From NCBI RefSeq assembly GCF_002104995.1, contig NW_024468280.1, positions 1 through 64,000 on the forward strand: DNA of 64,000 nucleotides, in the 5' to 3' direction. The notes under the pieces were generated by a model that saw only the letters and a program-made list of their open reading frames with translations, was not told the origin of the DNA and searched no databases. Numbering within the stretch: position 1 is the stretch's first letter; each line of letters begins with the position of its first letter. Of this stretch, positions 936 to 53,332 are shown piece after piece. Position numbers and translations under genes: made by a program. Source of the stretch: Linderina pennispora (Eukaryota > Kickxellomycota > Kickxellomycetes > Kickxellales > Kickxellaceae).

Positions 936-2290
936 CTAAAAGGGTTGACAAATGAAAGCAAGGCGCTCCGTTGACAGGCAGTGCAAAAGGGGTGTAAAAG
1001 AAGGCGAGAGGCAGGAGCAGAAAGGAGAAAGAGGAAGTCGTCTGCATCCCAGGCCGCATGCCAGGTCATCAATGGGAGCAGGAAAACAGAATAACAAGGT
1101 GCGAAAGTAAGCGCACCAAGGGTTACTTGGCCACATCCCGCTTGCTCCTCTTTCCCTTCCCCCTCGACGAAATTACTGCACGTTCGTTTACTGCGCTCAC
1201 TAAACAACGGCAAAGAATTGCACAGGGAGGAGGCCAGCAGCAGAAAAGCCTGGTGTACCGGCCACGCCCGCGTAACGAGCAGTCCCTGGGAGCTGGTGGA
1301 GCTGGTGGAGCTGGTGGAGCTGTTGGCTTAGCGAGGGCCAAGCGACATGCTGACACAGGTTTGGACAATCCTAGCCCCTTCGGAATGGGGGCGAAGAAAG
1401 AAGCAGCAGACAAACTCAGGTGCAGAAAAATGAAACAGGACACCCGAATAGCACATGCACCTTTGCCCATGACAAGGCTCATGGGGTTCAGAGAAGCCTT
1501 AAACCCACACAAGCTGGTGGTTGCAATAGTGGTAGCGGTCCTAGCATGCAAGTAAAACCTACCTAGTATTTGAGGCAGCATCCGGAACTCGTGCTTGCCG
1601 CCAGTGCTGTGGCGCGACGATTGGGGTCTTCTTGCGACTCGCAGAGACGGAACCTCGTCAACCTGGGCGACGCTGAACCGCCCTCCAAGACCAGCCAGCG
1701 GCGGTGCATTGCGTGCACGATTGACCTTGGCCCGGCAACTCCCATTTTGCGGCCTACCAGTATTACCAAGGTTAGCAGCAGGACTCCCAGCATTGTTACA
1801 TGCCAATACACACTGGTTTATGCTTGGTTCCGTACCTTGCCTTGCTGTTCGAGCATAATTTGCGTAGTGGGGTTTAGGTGCAACAATGAGAAGTGAGAAG
1901 AAAGGAAGTGAGAAGTGAAGAAGGCGGCAGCTGTCTGTCCGTTTTCCGACCAGCCTGTATGCGTCAAGCGAAATAAGCTTTTGTGAGACCAGAGCAGCAA
2001 TTTGCACAGATTGCGTTCCAATCGAGCCAAATAGAAGTGAAAAAAACAGTAGTATTAGAGGGAGCAAAAGAAGAGAAAAACACCCGGAAAGAGAAGAGAA
2101 ACCCGCTATTCGCCAGCCCGTTCTTCTCGCCTGGTCACAAAACGCTCTCTTTTGCACTCGTCGACGCGCGAAACTTTGGCCTCGCTTCTGATTTTTTTTG
2201 GGACACTCGACCGGTCCCTGAGACGTCTGGCCTTGCGAGCTCCAGCCCAAGCCAATGGAACTCCAGCTTGCAGGGGTTTAGCTTTTAATA
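936..2290. other. Upstream region of the B56 gene, no firm gene
   Basis: Open frames cross this stretch on both strands but none resembles a known family. A serine/arginine-rich minus-strand stretch around 1563-1800, followed by a GTAGGT donor-like site at 1557-1562, could be a 5' exon of the B56 gene. Its phase does not join correctly to the exon ending at 935, so I do not call it. Confidence 0.3.
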
Positions 2291-3553
2291 CTTTTCGTTT
2301 AGCATTTGTTGCACTCGGGGCACCTTTTCCAGTCTGGCGCGCATACTGCAGGACACCTGTTGCTTGATGTCGGAAGTGTCACGTAGCAGCGACATAGCGC
2401 GTAGCCATGCAGATGCGTTCTCAATGGCGGTAGCGATGATAGTGTTTTGCTGCAAGACAATAGGCAGCGCAAGGGCTGGACACGAACCTACACCAGTTCA
2501 CAGTGCTCGCAAATGCACCTGGTAGATCTGTCACAGACGTTCAGTAGAATGTCTAAGCCTGAGGGGATCGACTAAAAAATCAGTGAATGTAGCGTTGGAC
2601 CACAATGCGAGCTGCTAGGAATCCTGGTCTTTTTCCTAGCTTATCCGGTCCCGTTTTTGCGGCGATCAATGGTCTATTGAAAGCAATGGCGGCTCCAGTG
2701 CTCCCCATGTTTCATGCATCGCCGGTTTATAAATAGGTCCACCGTCTGGGCACGAGTCCAGCGCTGCCATATTAATTTGATCTTCACAACGATTGTAGGC
2801 ACGATCAGTCCCTTGTGCCCCTATGCCTTGCAATAGCAGTGGCTACAGCAGTGCATTGAGGCATGAAGCTGGCCCTTATGCACCTATCTACGTGCACCTA
2901 AGGCTTCTGTGAGTAAAACACAGAGTGAGTGAAATTGGGTGGCTAATGTGTGTCAAATTTCCTAGACACTCGGTACACAAAAGTCAGCTCTGTAGAGGAC
3001 CTCAGGCATATAAGCACGACAGTCATCTACTTTTCAATGACCACTGCTGGCATAGATTTTTTTGTTGACCTCATGTTCGTAGTTCCATCTTCAGGGAGGC
3101 GCATGGCAGTTTCCCCTATATAAGTGAGCCATGTCACATGTAGACTGTCTGCTGGCGGTATATTTGCGTGCAAAGTTGGTCATCATAATATGTCGGTGTC
3201 AACGCTAGTGCGGACCATATGAAAATTCAATCTCAGTCATCGCTATAAAGTTGGAAGCTATTCTGTCCAGATACTAAGGCTAGTCACCAAATTACAACCA
3301 TTCTCGAAATTATTCTGTCAGAATTATTTATAGAATCCCAAAGCAGCAGAAGTTTGTTAATTGTTAGAGCGTAGTCGCTGCTGCCTGGTGTGGATGCAAC
3401 CCCAGCCAATATGCCTGCAGCCCCACGCACATTAACCTGGTATATTCAACAGCATATACAGTATCTGTGACTCAAGTTAATGGAAAAATTTCTAGCCTAT
3501 TGATGGCACAGCAATCGATAACGGAACTGTCTTTACTTTTCCATAAGGTTTCG
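2291..3553. other. Gene-poor intergenic DNA
   Basis: AT-richer than the coding blocks, with many stops in all frames and no recognisable coding, tRNA or mobile-element signature. I see only scattered short AT runs. Confidence 0.5.
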
Positions 3554-6225: not shown

Positions 6226-8425
6226 GGTTTAAATGTTAGGTGTAAGTATAAAAAACAATGCCCAAATGGCAAAAGTACAGGACACATAGGATGCTTGCGC
6301 AGCCAGGATTTGTAGGACGGCGACTGCAGCGGCACTGTCTACTGTACTTGCTTGAACTCACTCTGTCGGCAGTCCCTTTTTGCACATGCAGGTAGATGTG
6401 GCTTGTGTATATGCCGTGTTTCGGTGCACGACTAAGCTGCTGATGGTTTTTTGTCACTTCAATTAGCCATTGTACCTGCTTCAGTTCAGGTTATCGATGC
6501 ATTTTCCCATTTCCCCTGGCCTCTATCCATCGTTTCTGCATACCCATTTCTTTTATGTGAATACTAGCTCATTTACGGTTTGACAAATGTATTCATTTAT
6601 ATATAATTTGCTATATGTACATATCTAAATGCTCATGGACGCAGGTCGGCACCAACATTCCGTAGAGGTCACCAAAATGTCACTGACAATCTGCAACCCT
6701 CTAGGTGTCAGTGCCATCAAGTTCCTTTTCTGGAATAGAAATACTGATCAGCTATGGAGAACGTCAAGCCTGGCTGCACAGGCGAGTAAGGGGGCGCCTA
6801 CCTACATCGCCTCCGCCCACATTTCCCCAAGAGAGTGACATCTGGCCACAAATGTGGTCGGGGATACTTGCTACCCACACACAAGGAGAGCAGCAACACA
6901 TGTGATCAGCAAATGGGCTGCTGTCTATATTTGGATCCAGGGGTGGTTTAAGGCGCCCCAGATGCCACCCTCTCTGTGCTATAGAGCTGGGGCTAGGTTC
7001 TTGAGCCCAAAAAGGTGTGCAGCTCCTCCTGTGTACTATACCATCTGCTCGGTTTTTGCTGAATGGCGCTCATGCCGGCAGGCTGCATGAGCGATCGGTA
7101 AAGCCGCTTTGCCAAATCATGGTCATTTTGCGCTGTCCCTCTTTTCCAGACAAATCACTCGTTACTCAGTTGGCTTGTAGTTGTCGATGGTGACGTTTCT
7201 TATTTGCAACTCTGCTCCGCATATAGGTCTTGGGTGCTGCCACAGCGAATAAGGAGTGCATCCTGCCCTGCTCAAAAGGCTTGCAGTGCCATTTGCATTG
7301 TCTATTTCCATGCGGCTTACACAGTGTCTTGGCTGGAAATGCACGCCTGCTTTTATGCTGCTCACAGTCCATACTGTCAAAATCCCCTCCATCCCCTGCA
7401 TGCTCGAAGCAAGCAGAACAGCGGGTTGTCACTGTCAAGTGTTTTGTGCGTGGCCTTACGCTGCGTGCTGCTGCGGATCATTGTGTAGCTGCCATTTTCG
7501 GTTAATTAAGCTCCTGTTGCGCAACCAAAAATGCTTGTTCTGCTCATGCCAATAGTCCCTGATTTTGGAGCAGACTGACACCACATGCACGGTCATTGTT
7601 CATACTGATTCTCGCTGCTCCATCTCCGCATGCTTCAGTGCTAAACATTGTTTTTGGCCTGCCGGTGTGGAATTCGAGCGATGCCAAACTTTTATTGCTC
7701 GGGACTTTCAGTCCAAGCTCCGGATCCACATATACTGCAATGCATGCGTTGCCGCTGCTGCCCTTCAGAAGCAGTACAATGAGTCTTCTAGTGCAAATCG
7801 GCGTGCTCTGCGAAAGAATCGTTTGTCTAAGGTCCTAGTCAGGCAGTGGGCGCTATTTTTTTTTTCAAGTAAAGAGATCACTTCCATGTATGGATACTAA
7901 GTAGCAGGACCACCCACACCGATGTATGACAGAGAGAGAGAGAGAGAGAGAGAAAATATTAAAAATAACAGCACAGCACGGCACAGCATGGCACTTAGCC
8001 TTATATCTAACCTTGCATATTTTATATTCCTGTGAGCAGTCTGCAGTTATGCTCGTCGTAACCAAGGAACACCCTATGATGGATTCTCAGACAAATTCGT
8101 GCATCTAATCAGCCAAATTATAAACCAAGTTCCCAAGTGGCATGCGTCAAGTGGCATGCGCCAAGCGGCATGTTAAACAGGTTCCTCCTGGGAGGGTGAC
8201 TCGTCTGGATTCAGCTCTTGATCAATAAGCTGCGAATGTGCTGGGGACTCTGGTATGCGGCGGTTCAAATAGCTCAGAGAAATGATGGCCAAACTTCAAA
8301 GGTATTACTGCATTGATCGATAGTCTTGGCCCGACCAAAGTCACCAGGATATAGCTGTGGATGTAGTGGTGTGGAAGTAATATTGGAAGAAAAGGTCTGC
8401 AAATGAGCTAATCGCCGCTGTCAAT
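6226..8425. other. Gene-poor intergenic DNA with simple repeats
   Basis: No convincing gene on either strand; all open frames are short and lack family motifs. It holds an AG dinucleotide run at 7931-7953, GCACAGCACG-type short repeats around 7970-7992 and a near-tandem AGTGGCATGCG/AAGCGGCATG motif at about 8137-8172. Confidence 0.5.
7931..7953. repeat. (AG)n microsatellite
   Basis: Uninterrupted AG dinucleotide run of about 11 units in intergenic DNA. Confidence 0.95.
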
Positions 8426-47236: not shown

Positions 47237-48749
47237 CATCTGTACTTTGTTTTCCTATCTTCCATTCGCTTCCCTGCATCATGTCTATATATACACCTCT
47301 CACAGCCAGTTATCCAGCAAAGTACTCCCAAGGATGCTGAGTGTATTCCGAAGACTCAGCGAATGTTTGCAGTACTATCAGCGCCACACACACCACTGAT
47401 GATTTGAATGGATGACTGCCCATGATAGCTGTAGCTGATAGCCATTGTCTCATCTGCTGGTATATCAGGCGTGCCGTTGCGCTCGATGGACGGTATGAAA
47501 TAAAGCTATTGCCGATACTGAGCGAGAAAATGCAAAGCGAAGAGGAAGAACGCATTATGGCCGCAACGACATGCCTATATAATCTGTTGCCTGGCTGTTG
47601 TGGCACCTTTAGCGACAAAAGTAACAGTATGTGGCAATGCCTACGATGTGGTCGATTTGTGTGCCCATAAATCACTACTTGCTACATCCATCGAGTACGC
47701 TGCAGGGTGGGCCACGTTGGCGCCAGTCACAGCGTCTTCTGAGCCACCATGGATGATGGCCCTGGGAACAACGGCTTCGGGCATGCGCCTGTTGACATTG
47801 GACCACCAGCATAAGCTAACACTACTCTGGGCACACCGAGACTCAAAATTCAGGTGGACTGACCATTGTCATCCCAAGCAATCACTTGTGATTCCACGGT
47901 CACTGTAGCCACTATTCCAATGGCCACAACAAAAATGGCCACCAATGTGGCTACAAGAGTCAATACCACTCAAGCTCCTTCAAAGATGGCGATAGTTAGC
48001 CAGCCACACCCCATTGGGGGCCTTTTGGCTGCCAACCTACCGTCTTCAACGCTTGCTACATAAAGTTTAGCTAGTATTAATTTTAAAACGCGTGAATATT
48101 TTGAAATCCATTGGTTCTCGAGCTACACTTTCCTGGATTTCTTTACCTTTATACAAGATTTTATAGTCCAAAAAGTGTCCGACCGTCCGCTAGAACCTTT
48201 TTAATTGATTAAAAGATAAAACTTTTAAGCTTCAACACGGGTTTGAGTGACTTGCTCTGTAAACTCCTTTTTGATCTTGTGCGGCATCTGACCTCATCGG
48301 TGAAACCAGGGTGACAAGTTGTTATTGTAGTGGTCACAGGTCTCCACTGGATATCTCCATTGGTTCAGCGCAAGAGCTGCTCTCATTGTCGGTCGGCCTG
48401 ATAACCTCCATGGCATCGTCATGTTGGTCATCACTGGCTGCGCAACACTCTTAGGATATTCATTCATGAGCACCTATTGAATGAGGCCATATAGCTCTTC
48501 TAGCGGTCATACGATATTTGTGGATATATTTTATAAATTAATTTGTCTTATGAACATGCGTAAGCGGTAGTATTTGGGCCACAATGGACCCAGCCAGTAT
48601 AGACTGATTCAAGAGACTGTATCAGTGCTAAGGGCCCCAAGAACCATGCAAGCCAGATCATTTTTAATAAAAAGTTCTTAGTGCTATGCATCTGCAATAA
48701 AGCAAAACTGAACAGCATCATTTCTCTTCTTGCATATTGAATTTCTCAA
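47237..48749. other. Gene-poor DNA upstream of the Fanzor gene
   Basis: AT-rich with only short open frames. A CATTGG/CCAATGG-type motif recurs (for example 47918-47924, 48107-48113 and 48358-48364). No transposase, inverted terminal repeat or target duplication that would mark the Fanzor element's left end was recognised. Confidence 0.45.
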
Positions 48750-51182
48750 ATGAATATTACCCGCAGCACTACTGTCATAAAGAAATCACTTGGTGGTATT
48801 GGCTTCCGTGATTCTATGTTGCCCCGCCTAGAGCAATTTGTACACTGTGCCAATATCATCAAAGAGCATACATACATGCTTGCACGATGGATATTACTCC
48901 ATCAACTAACTGACGATGATGCTTTTGACCCTTCAATACTTGTGAAAAAGGGATTCTTTCGTTCAATTTATTTATTCATTTATCACAACCTGAAGGCGAA
49001 GACTGTCATATCTGCCGAGGATTTCGTCAACCGGAAGGACAAGTCAGAACTGTCGAACGCAGAGTTTAGTGATGTAGTTGGATACCATATTTATGATTAT
49101 CTATTGCATAATGGCGATATCGAGCTACATGGTGTACGTGAAATGAATCAGGTAGCGACATACGTAGATACCGAGCTGATGACAGCATACAAGAACAACA
49201 TTGTGTTGCACTATGGCAGTTGCCTACAGCGGATTCTGGCCAAATTGATTGATATTCGCAGCCGCAAAAACACACTGCGCAGTACAATGGGCAATGTGTC
49301 TAAGGCCGAGTTCAATGACGCATGTCAAGTGTATATTTATACGCCTGCACAAAAGCTCAACCAGACAGTTGCCTCTAGGCACCCTGATCTCAGTGTGCTC
49401 ACCCCACCGGTGCTTGCAATCTACAACAAGCTGGCACCAGTCCTTAATGCCTATGATGCCAAGGCAAATCCACTTAAGCATCTGTATGCATACATTCGCC
49501 TATGCCAGCTTATCGAGAATGAGCAGTTTGGCAAGTCTCCTCCCCAATGCTTGCCTCTGCGGACATCATGGATCCCAGGCCATGTGCGCTTCGACAAGCA
49601 AATAATCAAGCAGGTGTTTGTTTCGAAAACACGCGCGCAGGTTACCAAGATCAACGCAGCAAAGAGGGCAGCAGCAGAGGCAAGGAAAGCAGCAGAAAAA
49701 AGCGAAAACTTAGCCAAGAAGGCTGCACGCGAAGCAGCGAAGATGCCATCAGATGAAACAGAGGCCACTGCAGCAACTGCAGCAGTAGCGGCTGATTCGC
49801 TTGCTGCTGCATCGGCGGCAGCAGCAGACACTGTTGCAGCACTTAACAATGCATATGCACCAGCACCCCCAGTCTGTGCACAGGAACCGGTCCAAGGGAT
49901 CATACAATCTGTGTGGGATGTGTGGGGCCGGGTCGCAGATCTAACATCAAAGCCATTTAAGGCGCATGGTGATAGAAAATTCCACGGAATGGCAACAACA
50001 GATGGTGTAACGATATGCATTCTGTTACAAGACAAGGTACCTAAGGCTGATGCTGCGGGAGGCAATGCTGTGGGAGGCAATACTATAGCTGACTGTCGCT
50101 ATATCCACCAAATCCCACAGCCAGAGCTGTAGAATCTGAAAGGCCGCTGTGTATTCATCGATCCAGGTCGGGGCGATTTACTGTATATGATGCACGAAAA
50201 TAGCAGCAATGGGAAAGAGGGTGAAAAGATGCTCTACCGCTACACACGGCAGCAGCGCAATAAGGAGCTCAAGCTGCACCACTATGGCAGGATTTGTCGG
50301 GGTATAAAGGATCAAGTCCCAGAAGATGCTGTCCGCAGAGCAGAGGCAGAGCTTTCCAAGCACTGCTGCCGGACCCTTAGCCCAGCAAAATTCCGTGCCT
50401 ACGTTGCTGCCCGTGCATCTGTGCGGTGTGTCCTAGCACCGTTTTATGCCAACACGATGACAGCGCGAAGGTTACCAGAGCAGCAGCTCACTAAGTCAAA
50501 CAAGTAGCACCAGAGGCGCTGGAAGGCCCATCCGGGTGTCGGGACCAGTCCCAAGGTGTACCCGCTTCACCGCAAGCTGCGCCTTGATTCATTCATGAAC
50601 CAGGCCCGTGCAGACCACAGGCTTGCCGTGAGACTCCGGAGCAAGTTCGGTCCAGATCCAGTGCTGATCATGGGCAATTGGAGTGCGCCGATGGCCCGAT
50701 ACCATGCGCCAATTCGTGGCAAGGGATGGCGCGACAAGTTCAAGCACCATGGCTTTGAAGTCTATCTGATCGACGAATTCCGGACATCGTCGATGTGCCC
50801 ATTCTGCTGCGAAAAGTCGCTGCAGACATTCCGGCATGTTCCCAGTCCGCGGCCCTACCAGAGATCGAAGAACCCAACTGTGAAGTGCCATGGCCTTCTC
50901 CGCTGTACAAGCGAGTCATGTAGGCGGGCCATGGCACAATACAGGCAGGCCTATTCGTCTCGGCTCTTGAACCGCGACCTCGCAGCAACTCTAAACTTCA
51001 GACTCATTTTCCAGCCACTCTGTGATTCAGGCAGTATTCCTGAACAATTCTATCGTTCTACGACCATTGCTGCCAGTGCTTCTGGCACCACCCCTGAAAC
51101 AAAGAACCCGCGCAAGAGGCGTGCAGCAGCAGGCGATTCTGTTGCCAGCAGCAGCGAGCCAGCGCTGAAGCGCCTACGCTGA
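48750..51182 (+). pseudogene. Fanzor (eukaryotic TnpB-like RNA-guided nuclease), interrupted by two in-frame TAG codons
   Basis: One reading frame of 811 codons runs from ATG 48750 to TGA 51182, broken only by TAG at 50130-50132 (codon 461) and 50505-50507 (codon 586). The C-terminal part carries the split RuvC nuclease of the TnpB/Fanzor family: RuvC-I Asp in VFIDPGRGD (D471), RuvC-II Glu in LIDEFRTSS (E676), a zinc ribbon beginning MCPFC (C683, C686) with later cysteines in CHGLLRCTSESC (713-724), and RuvC-III Asp in NRDLAATLNF (D743). The N-terminal 300 residues match the expected recognition lobe. An alanine/lysine-rich coiled-coil-like insert spans about 300-375. The C-terminus carries basic nuclear-localisation-like clusters (PRKRR, LKRLR). 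All catalytic residues survive. Both stops would be Gln (CAG) after one C-to-T change. No partner transposase was found. Confidence 0.88.
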
Positions 51183-51683
51183 GCAGGCCACCAAGATGGG
51201 AGATGTCCATGATCGCTATTACACCAACAACCATCCGACACGTTCAAATGACCGGTTCGCCGTGATGCTCTTATCGACGTGTCAACCCATGCTGACTAGC
51301 AGCCGAGCTCGCATCACGAGCAGAGCAATTCTGGTATAAAACTATTGTATGTAGGTTTGAAGTAGAATAACAGAAGAGAAGGAAAAGGAAGGGGGTGGGC
51401 TTTTGGGATATGTCCACATCCTCGCCAGACACAGTGCAACACCATTTGCTTGATGTAACCGGTGCGCCTGATGAGGAGAGGCGATTTTCAGAGTCAGAGG
51501 TCTGGATCTAACCATCTATTGTATGCAGCAAGGTCTGAATGCCCATCGCCATACATTTGTCCCGGGACATTGCCATCGGCCATGGTGTTAGCATCGATGC
51601 CCGCGCCGGCCCTAGCAACAAACTGAATATCATGATTTATTTCTAGGCATGAAGCCTGAGGCGAAATGAAAATAATTAGGCTG
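51183..51683. other. Intergenic, downstream of the Fanzor gene
   Basis: No gene. In related elements the guide RNA scaffold lies over and just beyond the nuclease 3' end, so 51100-51350 is where it would be sought. I see no diagnostic primary sequence. Confidence 0.35.
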
Positions 51684-52481
51684 CTAGACGATTGGAGTTG
51701 CAAGGTTGTAAATCTTGGCACCATCGCTGTAGTCTGCACCGTCGATGCGCTCATACTCAGGCGGGAACCTGACACGCTTGTCCTGGTAGTACTCGTCACG
51801 CTTATATCCCTCGCTGGCTCGGTTGTATGTCATGTAGAGATTAGCACGGTTTGTATCAGACATGTTGTCCGCCGACCGATGTGCAATGTACGATCCGAAA
51901 ATCAGGATATCGCCAGAATTGCACTCAATCGGGACCCATTCATGCTCATCGCACCATTTCTTGCTAATCGACCCGTCCGCCTCCTGCGGCAGCACGCCAT
52001 CCTTGTGGCTCCCGGGCACTGCATACAGACACCCATTCTCAATGTACGATCCATCAACAGTGAATAGCACCGTGGCATGGTTGACCTGTCCTAGGTGGAC
52101 AAACGCTGGCGCGTCCTGGTGCGCAGGGAATGCTCCGCCGCCGGGGAGCTTGGCGTTGATTTTCTCCTTGAACAAAACGTACGGCTCGCCGGAAAGCTGC
52201 TCAAGTATCGACATGATGCGCGGGCCGGTGACCGTTTCGCGTACAAAGTCGTGGTAGGGGGTGAAATTTTCCGTGCGGCACAGCTGCCGCTCGCCGGTCT
52301 TCTTATTGACCTCGTAGTAGTTCATCCATTTGCCTGGCGTGTCCGGCCATGACTGGATCTCGCGCACTGAAGAGACAAGCTGAGCGGCCTCGTCCGGTGT
52401 GATGAGGTCGGTGATCTTGAGGAACCCCTGCGAGTGGTATGACGCAAGCTGCTCGGGAGACAGAGTGTATGTTGCCGGCAT
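51684..52481 (-). CDS. phnY: PhnY-like Fe(II)/2-oxoglutarate dioxygenase (PhyH family)
   Basis: 265 residues, single exon. It fits the phytanoyl-CoA dioxygenase superfamily with the metal triad H121-x-D123 (AFPAHQDAPAF) and H201 (SYIAHRSADN), and the 2-oxoglutarate-binding Arg in TNRANLYMTYNR (R212). The KINAKLPGGGAFPAHQDAPAF stretch is typical of bacterial PhnY, which hydroxylates 2-aminoethylphosphonate at C1. Its divergent neighbour at 53333 is an HD-domain oxygenase of the PhnZ type, the enzyme that uses the PhnY product. That pairing is the main reason for the name; on its own the protein could act on another small substrate. Upstream is a TATA box at 52568-52574. No targeting signal is seen, so it is probably cytosolic. 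Confidence 0.75.
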   Translation of the reverse strand: MPATYTLSPEQLASYHSQGFLKITDLITPDEAAQLVSSVREIQSWPDTPGKWMNYYEVNKKTGERQLCRTENFTPYHDFVRETVTGPRIMSILEQLSGEPYVLFKEKINAKLPGGGAFPAHQDAPAFVHLGQVNHATVLFTVDGSYIENGCLYAVPGSHKDGVLPQEADGSISKKWCDEHEWVPIECNSGDILIFGSYIAHRSADNMSDTNRANLYMTYNRASEGYKRDEYYQDKRVRFPPEYERIDGADYSDGAKIYNLATPIV

Positions 52482-53332
52482 GATGGGTGGATGAGCTAGC
52501 GAAAAAAAAAAAGCCTCTTGGTTAGACGAGTCTGCTGCATGTCAGTACAGCTGGGATGCAGCCGGTATTTTATATGGCGGTTCTGGTGGTTTCCTGCCAG
52601 CCACATGGTCGCACTGGCCCGGGAACCTGCATCCCACGCTGCCTGCCACAGCTGCACACTGGTCTGTGATGGATGGCAGTGTTTGTCGCTAACACGAAAC
52701 CGAACCCTACCGAGTCAGGGGGTATGCCAGCGTTGAAGGAATTTTTAAAAAAAAAACATACATTTGTCGATCAGTCTGGCGTGGAACAACCTGGGCCGCC
52801 CCGATACCCTCGTGGTCGCCGATCCTGGAATCTTACAGGCCGGGCATGGGAAAAATATCCTCCCTGCAACCTGGGACAGATTGGGCTCGGTACTTCAAAG
52901 CCGGTGAGGGGCTGCGACTCACGGCTGTGTCTGCAGCCTTAGTGTAGTCATTTTAGTATTTCAGCGAGCCGCAGCTCGAAGGGGCTGGCCCGGGGCTGAT
53001 TGGCGCTTAACGTCATTGAGCACCAGCCTGATATACAGTTGGCATATTCCTGTGCAGACTGTCATCCTCCAGGTGCACACACGTGTGAATGCTAGATGGT
53101 AAAACAAAGATCATGCACTGGCTCGGTGACAAGATGGACTGGCATGCAAGTGGGGGTGTGAGTCTGTGTCTAATGCTTCTCTTTGCTCCCCTTGTCCGCG
53201 ACCCTTCGTGTCGGTGCTGGGCTACTGTAAAATAGGATCAGGCCTGCATTCAGGCTCTATGAAATTACACCACTCGACATCTCTCTCCATCGCCGCACGT
53301 AAGATTTTCTAATATCTCTCTATCCCTCAAGC
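52482..53332. other. Divergent intergenic region between the PhnY-like and PhnZ-like genes
   Basis: 851 bp separating two divergently transcribed genes of one presumed pathway, so it may hold shared control sites. A TATA box serves the left gene. A run of A near 52503 and 52747 and no open frame of note. Confidence 0.45.
52568..52574 (-). promoter_or_regulatory. TATA box of the PhnY-like gene
   Basis: TATAAAA on the minus strand, 87 nt before the ATG at 52481. Confidence 0.5.

Follow-up and report, generated by a model that had tools for sequence, protein, structure and literature searches.

A Fanzor1 gene with two TAG codons in Linderina pennispora very probably lies in a decayed Helitron copy of a multi-copy, non-autonomous family

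Introduction

Fanzor1 genes carried by non-autonomous Helitrons were already described in Chlamydomonas in 2013 (Bao and Jurka, PMC3627910, in the portion of the paper available). The families CRe-1, CRe-2 and CRe-3 reported there are of the Helitron2 type: both ends bear hairpins, the terminal inverted repeats are asymmetric, insertion occurs after TTTT, and 5′ truncation with target duplications is frequent. The same source gives the motif of Fanzor and TnpB proteins as D-X(125-275)-[TS][TS]-XX-C4 zinc finger-X(5-50)-RD. Rolling-circle elements of fungi include FoHeli of Fusarium, for which tandem insertions were reported and which is Helitron2-like with non-canonical ends (PMC5148889); in the available part of that text, TnpB occurs only in a reference title.

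Solved Fanzor1 structures include those of PpFz1 from Parasitella parasitica (PDB 9cf0-9cf3) and SpuFz1 from Spizellomyces punctatus (PDB 8gkh). In known Fanzor systems, the RNA maps to the 3′ end, with the flank serving as guide (PMC10432273, available excerpt). The TAM is ATN for PpFz1 (PMC11423790) and CATA for SpuFz1 (PMC10432273), according to the accessible parts of both papers; one sentence of PMC11423790 gives the motifs of GtFz1 and SpuFz1 in the opposite order.

Here, we analysed a window, i.e. the whole stretch of 64,000 nucleotides, in which a first-pass annotation had placed a nearly intact Fanzor gene interrupted by two TAG codons. The host, Linderina, is a fungus of the Kickxellales with a saprotrophic life. 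Its Fanzor-carrying family is likewise non-autonomous, shares its 5′ end with RepHel Helitrons and is present in many copies, as are CRe-1, CRe-2 and CRe-3. Unlike these, its elements begin with TC and end with CTRR, have a single clear hairpin on the 3′ side, insert at A/TA (the slash marks the point of insertion) and occur in tandem with RepHel-type units. The ends also set the family apart from FoHeli. The differences from the known Fanzor1 Helitrons thus concern the Helitron type, the host and the tandem RepHel partner. No earlier report of this Linderina family was found in the open-licence literature.

Results

Fanzor1 Identity of the Interrupted Gene

The fungal origin assumed for the gene was confirmed, since a query of 500 residues from the neighbouring SPT16 gene matched that of Linderina pennispora with 98% identity and 96% coverage. 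Re-reading of the plus strand also confirmed a single frame of 811 codons, TGA at the end included, that is free of frameshifts and interrupted by TAG at codons 461 and 586. The features of the gene are as follows.

48750–51182, plus strand: Fanzor1 gene, broken by two TAG codons and a 13-residue in-frame deletion
about 49452–49466, plus strand: where 13 residues of the open copy L023 are missing in frame, placed by pairwise alignment
50130–50132, plus strand: TAG at codon 461
50160–50162, plus strand: RuvC aspartate D471, aligned with SpuFz1 D383
50505–50507, plus strand: TAG at codon 586
50775–50777, plus strand: RuvC glutamate E676, aligned with SpuFz1 E541
50796–50921, plus strand: zinc ribbon region (CxxC ... 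CTSESC), from the motif; the Pfam Cas12f1-like TNB match is below the cut-off
50976–50978, plus strand: RuvC aspartate D743, aligned with SpuFz1 D606

The RuvC triad, the zinc ribbon and the Fanzor family membership proposed at first sight all held on closer comparison. D471, E676 and D743 align with the RuvC residues D383, E541 and D606 given for SpuFz1 in the available part of PMC10432273, and the window copy contains the whole motif of Bao and Jurka, with [TS][TS] 208 residues past D471 followed by CxxC, the second cysteine pair and RD. In a search against the PDB, the C-terminal piece alone matched Parasitella Fanzor1 with an E-value of 3.5e-40 and SpuFz1 with 1.4e-27, while the corresponding values for the open copy L023 were 3.5e-83 and 1.1e-34. 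Homology extends beyond RuvC into the REC/WED part, where residues 7-302 of L023 match Parasitella Fanzor1 with 91 bits. Judged from this combination of triad, motif and homology outside RuvC, the protein is a Fanzor1. The Pfam search with pieces of the broken window gene gave only matches below the cut-off.

PpFz1 is the closest solved relative, with homology along most of the Linderina protein, whereas the homology to SpuFz1 is mainly located in the C-terminal part. All three proteins share the same RuvC triad and the same zinc ribbon; the Linderina protein, whose nuclease activity is a prediction, differs by its own Ala- and Gly-rich linkers. Coemansia Fanzors are 33-41% identical. One protein of Coemansia biformis (P0003, 576 aa, named Transposase) combines a DDE_3 match below the cut-off with a Fanzor-like part, and is possibly a Fanzor within another transposon type.

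The description of the gene as nearly intact proved too generous. In comparison with L023 (876 aa), the window copy lacks 13 residues in frame, in a segment whose aligned residues are present in Parasitella Fanzor1, and also about 53 residues of the Gly/Ala-rich linker.

Helitron Ends and Insertion Sites

The gene is real but was originally delimited on its own, while it forms part of a larger element of 3.2 kb, whose features are listed here.

48140–51334, plus strand: whole Fanzor-carrying Helitron copy, with a 5′-TC start and a 3′ CTGG end, and boundaries common to the fetched copies
48140–48219, plus strand: 5′ terminal 80 bp common to RepHel Helitrons
51219–51310, plus strand: conserved noncoding block, candidate guide-RNA (omega RNA) scaffold
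51307–51321, plus strand: Helitron 3′ terminal hairpin, with a 6-bp stem and a 3-nt loop in the majority of the family and one mismatch in the window copy
51335–51336, plus strand: host TA directly after the element

Where a 5′ end could be located in a fetched copy, it begins with TCTTTACC or a variant of this sequence; the first bases are altered in some copies (e.g. L019, L022, L024 and L048), and of the 30 positions of the pattern, 2 differ in the window copy. At the opposite end, CTAG follows the hairpin in most copies and CTGG in L016, L022 and the window copy. The dinucleotide TA then follows in all 21 copies that were found via the Fanzor core and hence without the end pattern; the total of 40 out of 40 distinct flanks includes 19 found with a pattern itself ending in TA. 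Paired flanks read A/TA in 28 of 32 cases, G/TA in three and T/TA in one, namely the window copy. For this count, a rule removed TCTTTA runs and short partial repeats lying before the start, and four duplicate sites as well as three tandem sites behind a RepHel-type end (L014, L019, L024) were left out.

At the 5′ flanks, T occupies position -2 in 29 of 38 cases and A position -1 in 32 of 38. A target-site duplication of TA, as suggested by 5′ flanks ending in TA, was ruled out by the unfilled paralogous sites, of which two were found for the 26 joined sites submitted (40 of 111 candidates scored). The site C58 shows neither gap nor duplication, but a T to A mismatch at the junction, and the site C206 has 11 more bases (an 11-bp difference) and no duplication. 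Membership in Helitron2 was likewise rejected: in all four copies tested, the first 40 and the last 80 bases share no asymmetric terminal inverted repeat of 6 bases or longer, and the 5′ end has no clear hairpin, only a weak one of 5 bp (-1.5 kcal/mol with RNA parameters).

With its TC start, hairpin plus CTRR end and A/T insertion without duplication, the element is a canonical-type Helitron (Helitron1). An A/T insertion site is the usual preference of canonical Helitrons. The element is non-autonomous, as no transposase and no non-Fanzor frame of more than 215 codons was found within 48140-51334. TCTTTA, the first six bases of the element, is repeated in runs before the start of L018, L020, L025, L028, L043, L089 and L096, as if the 5′ end had been repeated or had slipped during insertion. 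Directly downstream of the element, the window contains a gene of the phytanoyl-CoA dioxygenase family (51690-52541, minus strand; PF05721, E 6.2e-28).

Copy Number and RepHel Partner

The genome searched comprises 26.17 Mb in 222 contigs. Allowing up to three mismatches, by which more diverged copies are missed, the 3′ end of the element was found at 176 places and the 5′ end at 128, the Fanzor core at 93 (codon-461 region) and 100 (codon-586 region); backwards controls gave 0 each. These counts include segmental duplicates of one insertion, such as C162 with C1 and C175 with C57. In a similarity search, 40 of 221 candidates were scored, and each of the 40 was at least 94% identical over 1,045-1,052 bases. 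The Fanzor-Helitron family thus has roughly a hundred copies in the genome.

PF14214 was detected at seven loci of this genome and in none of 14 control genomes. Six of the loci form one RepHel family, and the seventh (C68) is weaker. In the family, the HUH motif is in frame at four of six loci, being preceded by a stop in L033 and changed in L034; the Y2 motif pattern is found in five of the six pieces read, one of them changed (L030); Walker A is found at five of six loci, and one locus gave Pfam matches to PIF1 helicase domains. None of the six loci has an intact RepHel copy in the parts read, owing to stops, truncation, changed catalytic residues or a copia-like insertion. This last lies in L034 (C171), where the RepHel gene is interrupted by a retrotransposon frame (1993-3327, minus strand) which we take to be copia-type from its sequence features.

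The 5′ terminal 80 bp of the Fanzor copy L021 are identical to those of the RepHel element C212 at all 80 positions, and shorter stretches of the same 5′ end were found at four more RepHel loci (L043, L045, L046 and L047). Between the 3′ ends of the RepHel-type unit (C212) and the Fanzor unit, similarity is confined to 16 nt of the hairpin (87.5%), the hairpin of the RepHel element being similar with a changed stem. A RepHel-type 3′ end was found downstream of all six loci of the RepHel family and at eight places altogether, and at all eight a Helitron 5′ end follows directly, in three cases with altered first bases; these places are not all independent, as C157 1.12 Mb and C171 have a common 5′ flank. 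Fanzor sequence was read after the RepHel-type end at three of them (L014, L019 and L024).

Both genes, RepHel and Fanzor, were read at one locus (C157 8-20 kb; L019, L030, L042), and by coordinates they also occur together at C212 and at C157 1.11 Mb, about 4 kb apart in the latter. A RepHel composite (C112:886107-891907) and a solo Fanzor element (C208:23882-27178) have both flanks in common and seem to sit at one insertion site within duplicated regions; recombination of the repeated 5′ ends with each other, or a later insertion, would give such a pair. Near the intact Fanzor gene of L023, toward the RepHel unit, lies an open frame of 543 aa (6284-7915, plus strand) without a Pfam match.

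Selection on the Family and Decay of the Window Copy

The search of the genome for an uninterrupted gene, as proposed initially, was successful: a complete ORF of 876 aa was found in L023, one of 21 copies examined, of which 17 were read from near the start codon and four only over the last 1.5-1.6 kb. In addition, L021 has kept the frame and lost the stop codon, L009 has kept a frame of 823 aa with a different beginning, and L012, one of the four shorter reads, is open over the piece read and rearranged in its 5′ half.

By pairwise comparison, pN/pS amounts to 0.33 for the RuvC core (210 pairs), 0.42 for the N-terminal part (120 pairs) and 0.79 for the C-terminal tail (210 pairs). In 13 full-length copies, private changes comprise 188 nonsynonymous, 93 synonymous and 8 stop changes, with N/S of 2.02 compared with the neutral value of 2.27, whereas changes common to at least two copies comprise 73 nonsynonymous, 79 synonymous and no stop changes, with N/S of 0.92. 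The difference between private and shared N/S is significant with a statistic that ignores kinship and exchange between copies (Fisher p 1.4e-4). At the level of comparative sequence, shared changes are thus under protein-level constraint, and private changes are near neutral. This fits a Fanzor protein that would have been under selection while the family spread, and copies that decay once inserted.

The two TAG codons of the window copy are ordinary decay. The first-pass annotation had argued that a decayed element would normally carry more damage and had proposed a very recent inactivation, cytosine-deamination damage or stop readthrough. However, the window copy has the highest number of private substitutions (61) of the 13 full-length copies, which contradicts a very recent inactivation. 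Of these, 45 are coding, with 33 protein-changing, 10 silent and 2 stop changes. At a neutral stop fraction of 3%, derived from the observed private-change spectrum, 45 coding substitutions predict about 1.35 stops, and 2 were seen (binomial p 0.39); the argument from missing damage therefore fails numerically.

The remaining family members have Gln at both codons almost throughout. Codon 461 is TAG at 2 of 93 genome places (the window and C189) and Gln (CAG or CAA) at the other 91, and codon 586 is TAG at 2 of 100 (the window and C9), Gln at 97 and Lys at 1. A further 20 fetched copies all have CAG at codon 461; at codon 586, CAG is found in 18, TAG in one and AAG in one. Therefore, the family does not use the two stops. 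In the tree, the two copies with TAG586 are not sisters, because L009, the copy nearest to that of the window, has CAG, and C189 with its TAG461 falls into another clade. One shared ancestral stop thus receives no support from the tree as a case of simple inheritance, and a single old stop is less likely than recurrent mutation or sequence exchange among copies.

Three other accounts of the TAG codons were considered beside ordinary decay. If they were read through or decoded as Gln, the window copy would be an expressed gene, and the frame is indeed open on either side of each TAG. This is extremely improbable in view of the Gln codons in nearly all other copies, of the other stops borne by other copies (8 private and 0 shared in the 13 copies), and of the 13-residue deletion and the private N/S of 33/10 in the window copy itself. 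An otherwise intact copy altered by sequencing errors, cytosine deamination or RIP would agree with both TAGs being C-to-T changes in a CpA context and with the presence of TAG461 in a second, distant copy, C189. Against such damage, C9 also has TAG586, and the 61 private substitutions have an ordinary spectrum of 47 transitions and 14 transversions (C>T 10, G>A 19). Moreover, CpA is not the favoured context, with 29 private C-to-T changes at 292 CpA cytosines compared with 43 at 146 CpG cytosines in the 13 copies, and we regard error or damage as very unlikely. The presence of introns in some Fanzor genes (Chlamydomonas, available part of PMC3627910) could place the TAGs inside introns of a spliced gene. 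Yet the open copy L023 reads through both places in one frame of 876 aa, and the alignment with Parasitella Fanzor1 spans codon 461, which leaves this account with a negligible probability.

Conserved Block at the 3′ End

The 92-nt block at 51219-51310 has a pairwise diversity of 0.0134 in the 13 full-length copies, compared with 0.0658 for 5′ noncoding sequence, 0.0602 for third codon positions, 0.0962 just after the stop codon and 0.101 for the last 22 bases. The block, whose edges were chosen after viewing the alignment, varies 4.5 times less than third codon positions and ranks 15th of 776 overlapping windows of equal length. Over the whole element, variation among stretches of 92 nt is lowest within the coding region, before codon 586 (50308-50399), with a diversity of 0.0033 over all codon positions in the same 13 copies.

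By its position, the block matches the placement of the RNA in known Fanzor systems (PMC10432273, as far as available), and we consider it a candidate guide-RNA scaffold from its conservation and location. Folding and covariation gave no significant signal of a structured RNA at the 3′ end of the element. The block folds no better than its shuffles (z -0.40, with 60 of 200 as good), and of 56 pairs a single one is compensatory, which falls into the coding tail instead of the block. In Rfam, no match above the gathering score was obtained over 48100-51420; two isrG matches on the other strand, far below that score, were taken as chance.

Alternatively, the block may be only a signal for Helitron transposition, without any guide RNA. 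A 36-mer from it occurs at 191 genome places (up to three mismatches; 0 in the backwards control), close to the 176 of the 3′ end and above the 93-100 places of the Fanzor core, so the block could serve transposition. At least one deletion derivative of 1.4 kb (C1:580723-582086) retains the block, and the absence of a significant fold points in the same direction. However, the one RepHel-type 3′ end compared has the 16-nt hairpin match and lacks the block; in turn, this end may never act alone, with a Helitron 5′ end next to it at all eight places. On balance, we give the transposition-signal reading somewhat less than an even chance.

Discussion

Combined, the window feature is, with high confidence, one decayed member of a multi-copy family of non-autonomous Helitrons that carry a Fanzor1 nuclease gene. 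RepHel would have moved the element in trans by rolling-circle transposition, and intact copies would have made a Fanzor that binds RNA from the conserved 3′ block. Host sequence past the hairpin would have served as the guide, and the nuclease may have helped the element to persist and spread, by cutting the matching unfilled site or in some other way. Each copy would then decay after insertion, which would have given the window copy its two TAGs. The lack of an intact RepHel in the parts read of the six loci counts against this explanation as regards present mobility.

The arrangement recalls IS200/IS605, in which an HUH transposase (TnpA) accompanies a TnpB-family nuclease and a 3′ RNA lies by the host flank, the latter being a candidate in Linderina. 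In contrast, IS200/IS605 has a Y1 TnpA within one element, while Linderina has a Y2 RepHel and two tandem units, and its RNA is putative. The A/TA insertion site fits both the ATN of PpFz1 and the CATA of SpuFz1, but canonical Helitrons favour A/T in any case. It is conceivable, though we consider it rather unlikely in full, that Helitron (HUH) and Fanzor form a eukaryotic counterpart of TnpA-TnpB. In that case, the A/TA target would double as TAM, the scaffold would end at the 3′ hairpin, each insertion would automatically supply a guide to its own site in the unfilled state, and selection on Fanzor would have kept the family spreading until RepHel decayed.

The two TAGs in one copy are by themselves ordinary decay; it is the family that is worth follow-up, for the RNA and TAM readings. 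The role that Fanzors play for many unrelated host transposons can be approached well in the Linderina family. Its copies, about 100 in 26 Mb, share the genome with a transposase partner and include at least one Fanzor gene without interruption; they also show a signal of selection during their spread and bear a short conserved candidate RNA at the edge of the element. The similarity of the insertion site to known Fanzor1 TAMs would make re-cutting of unfilled sites by Fanzor directly testable in this fungus.
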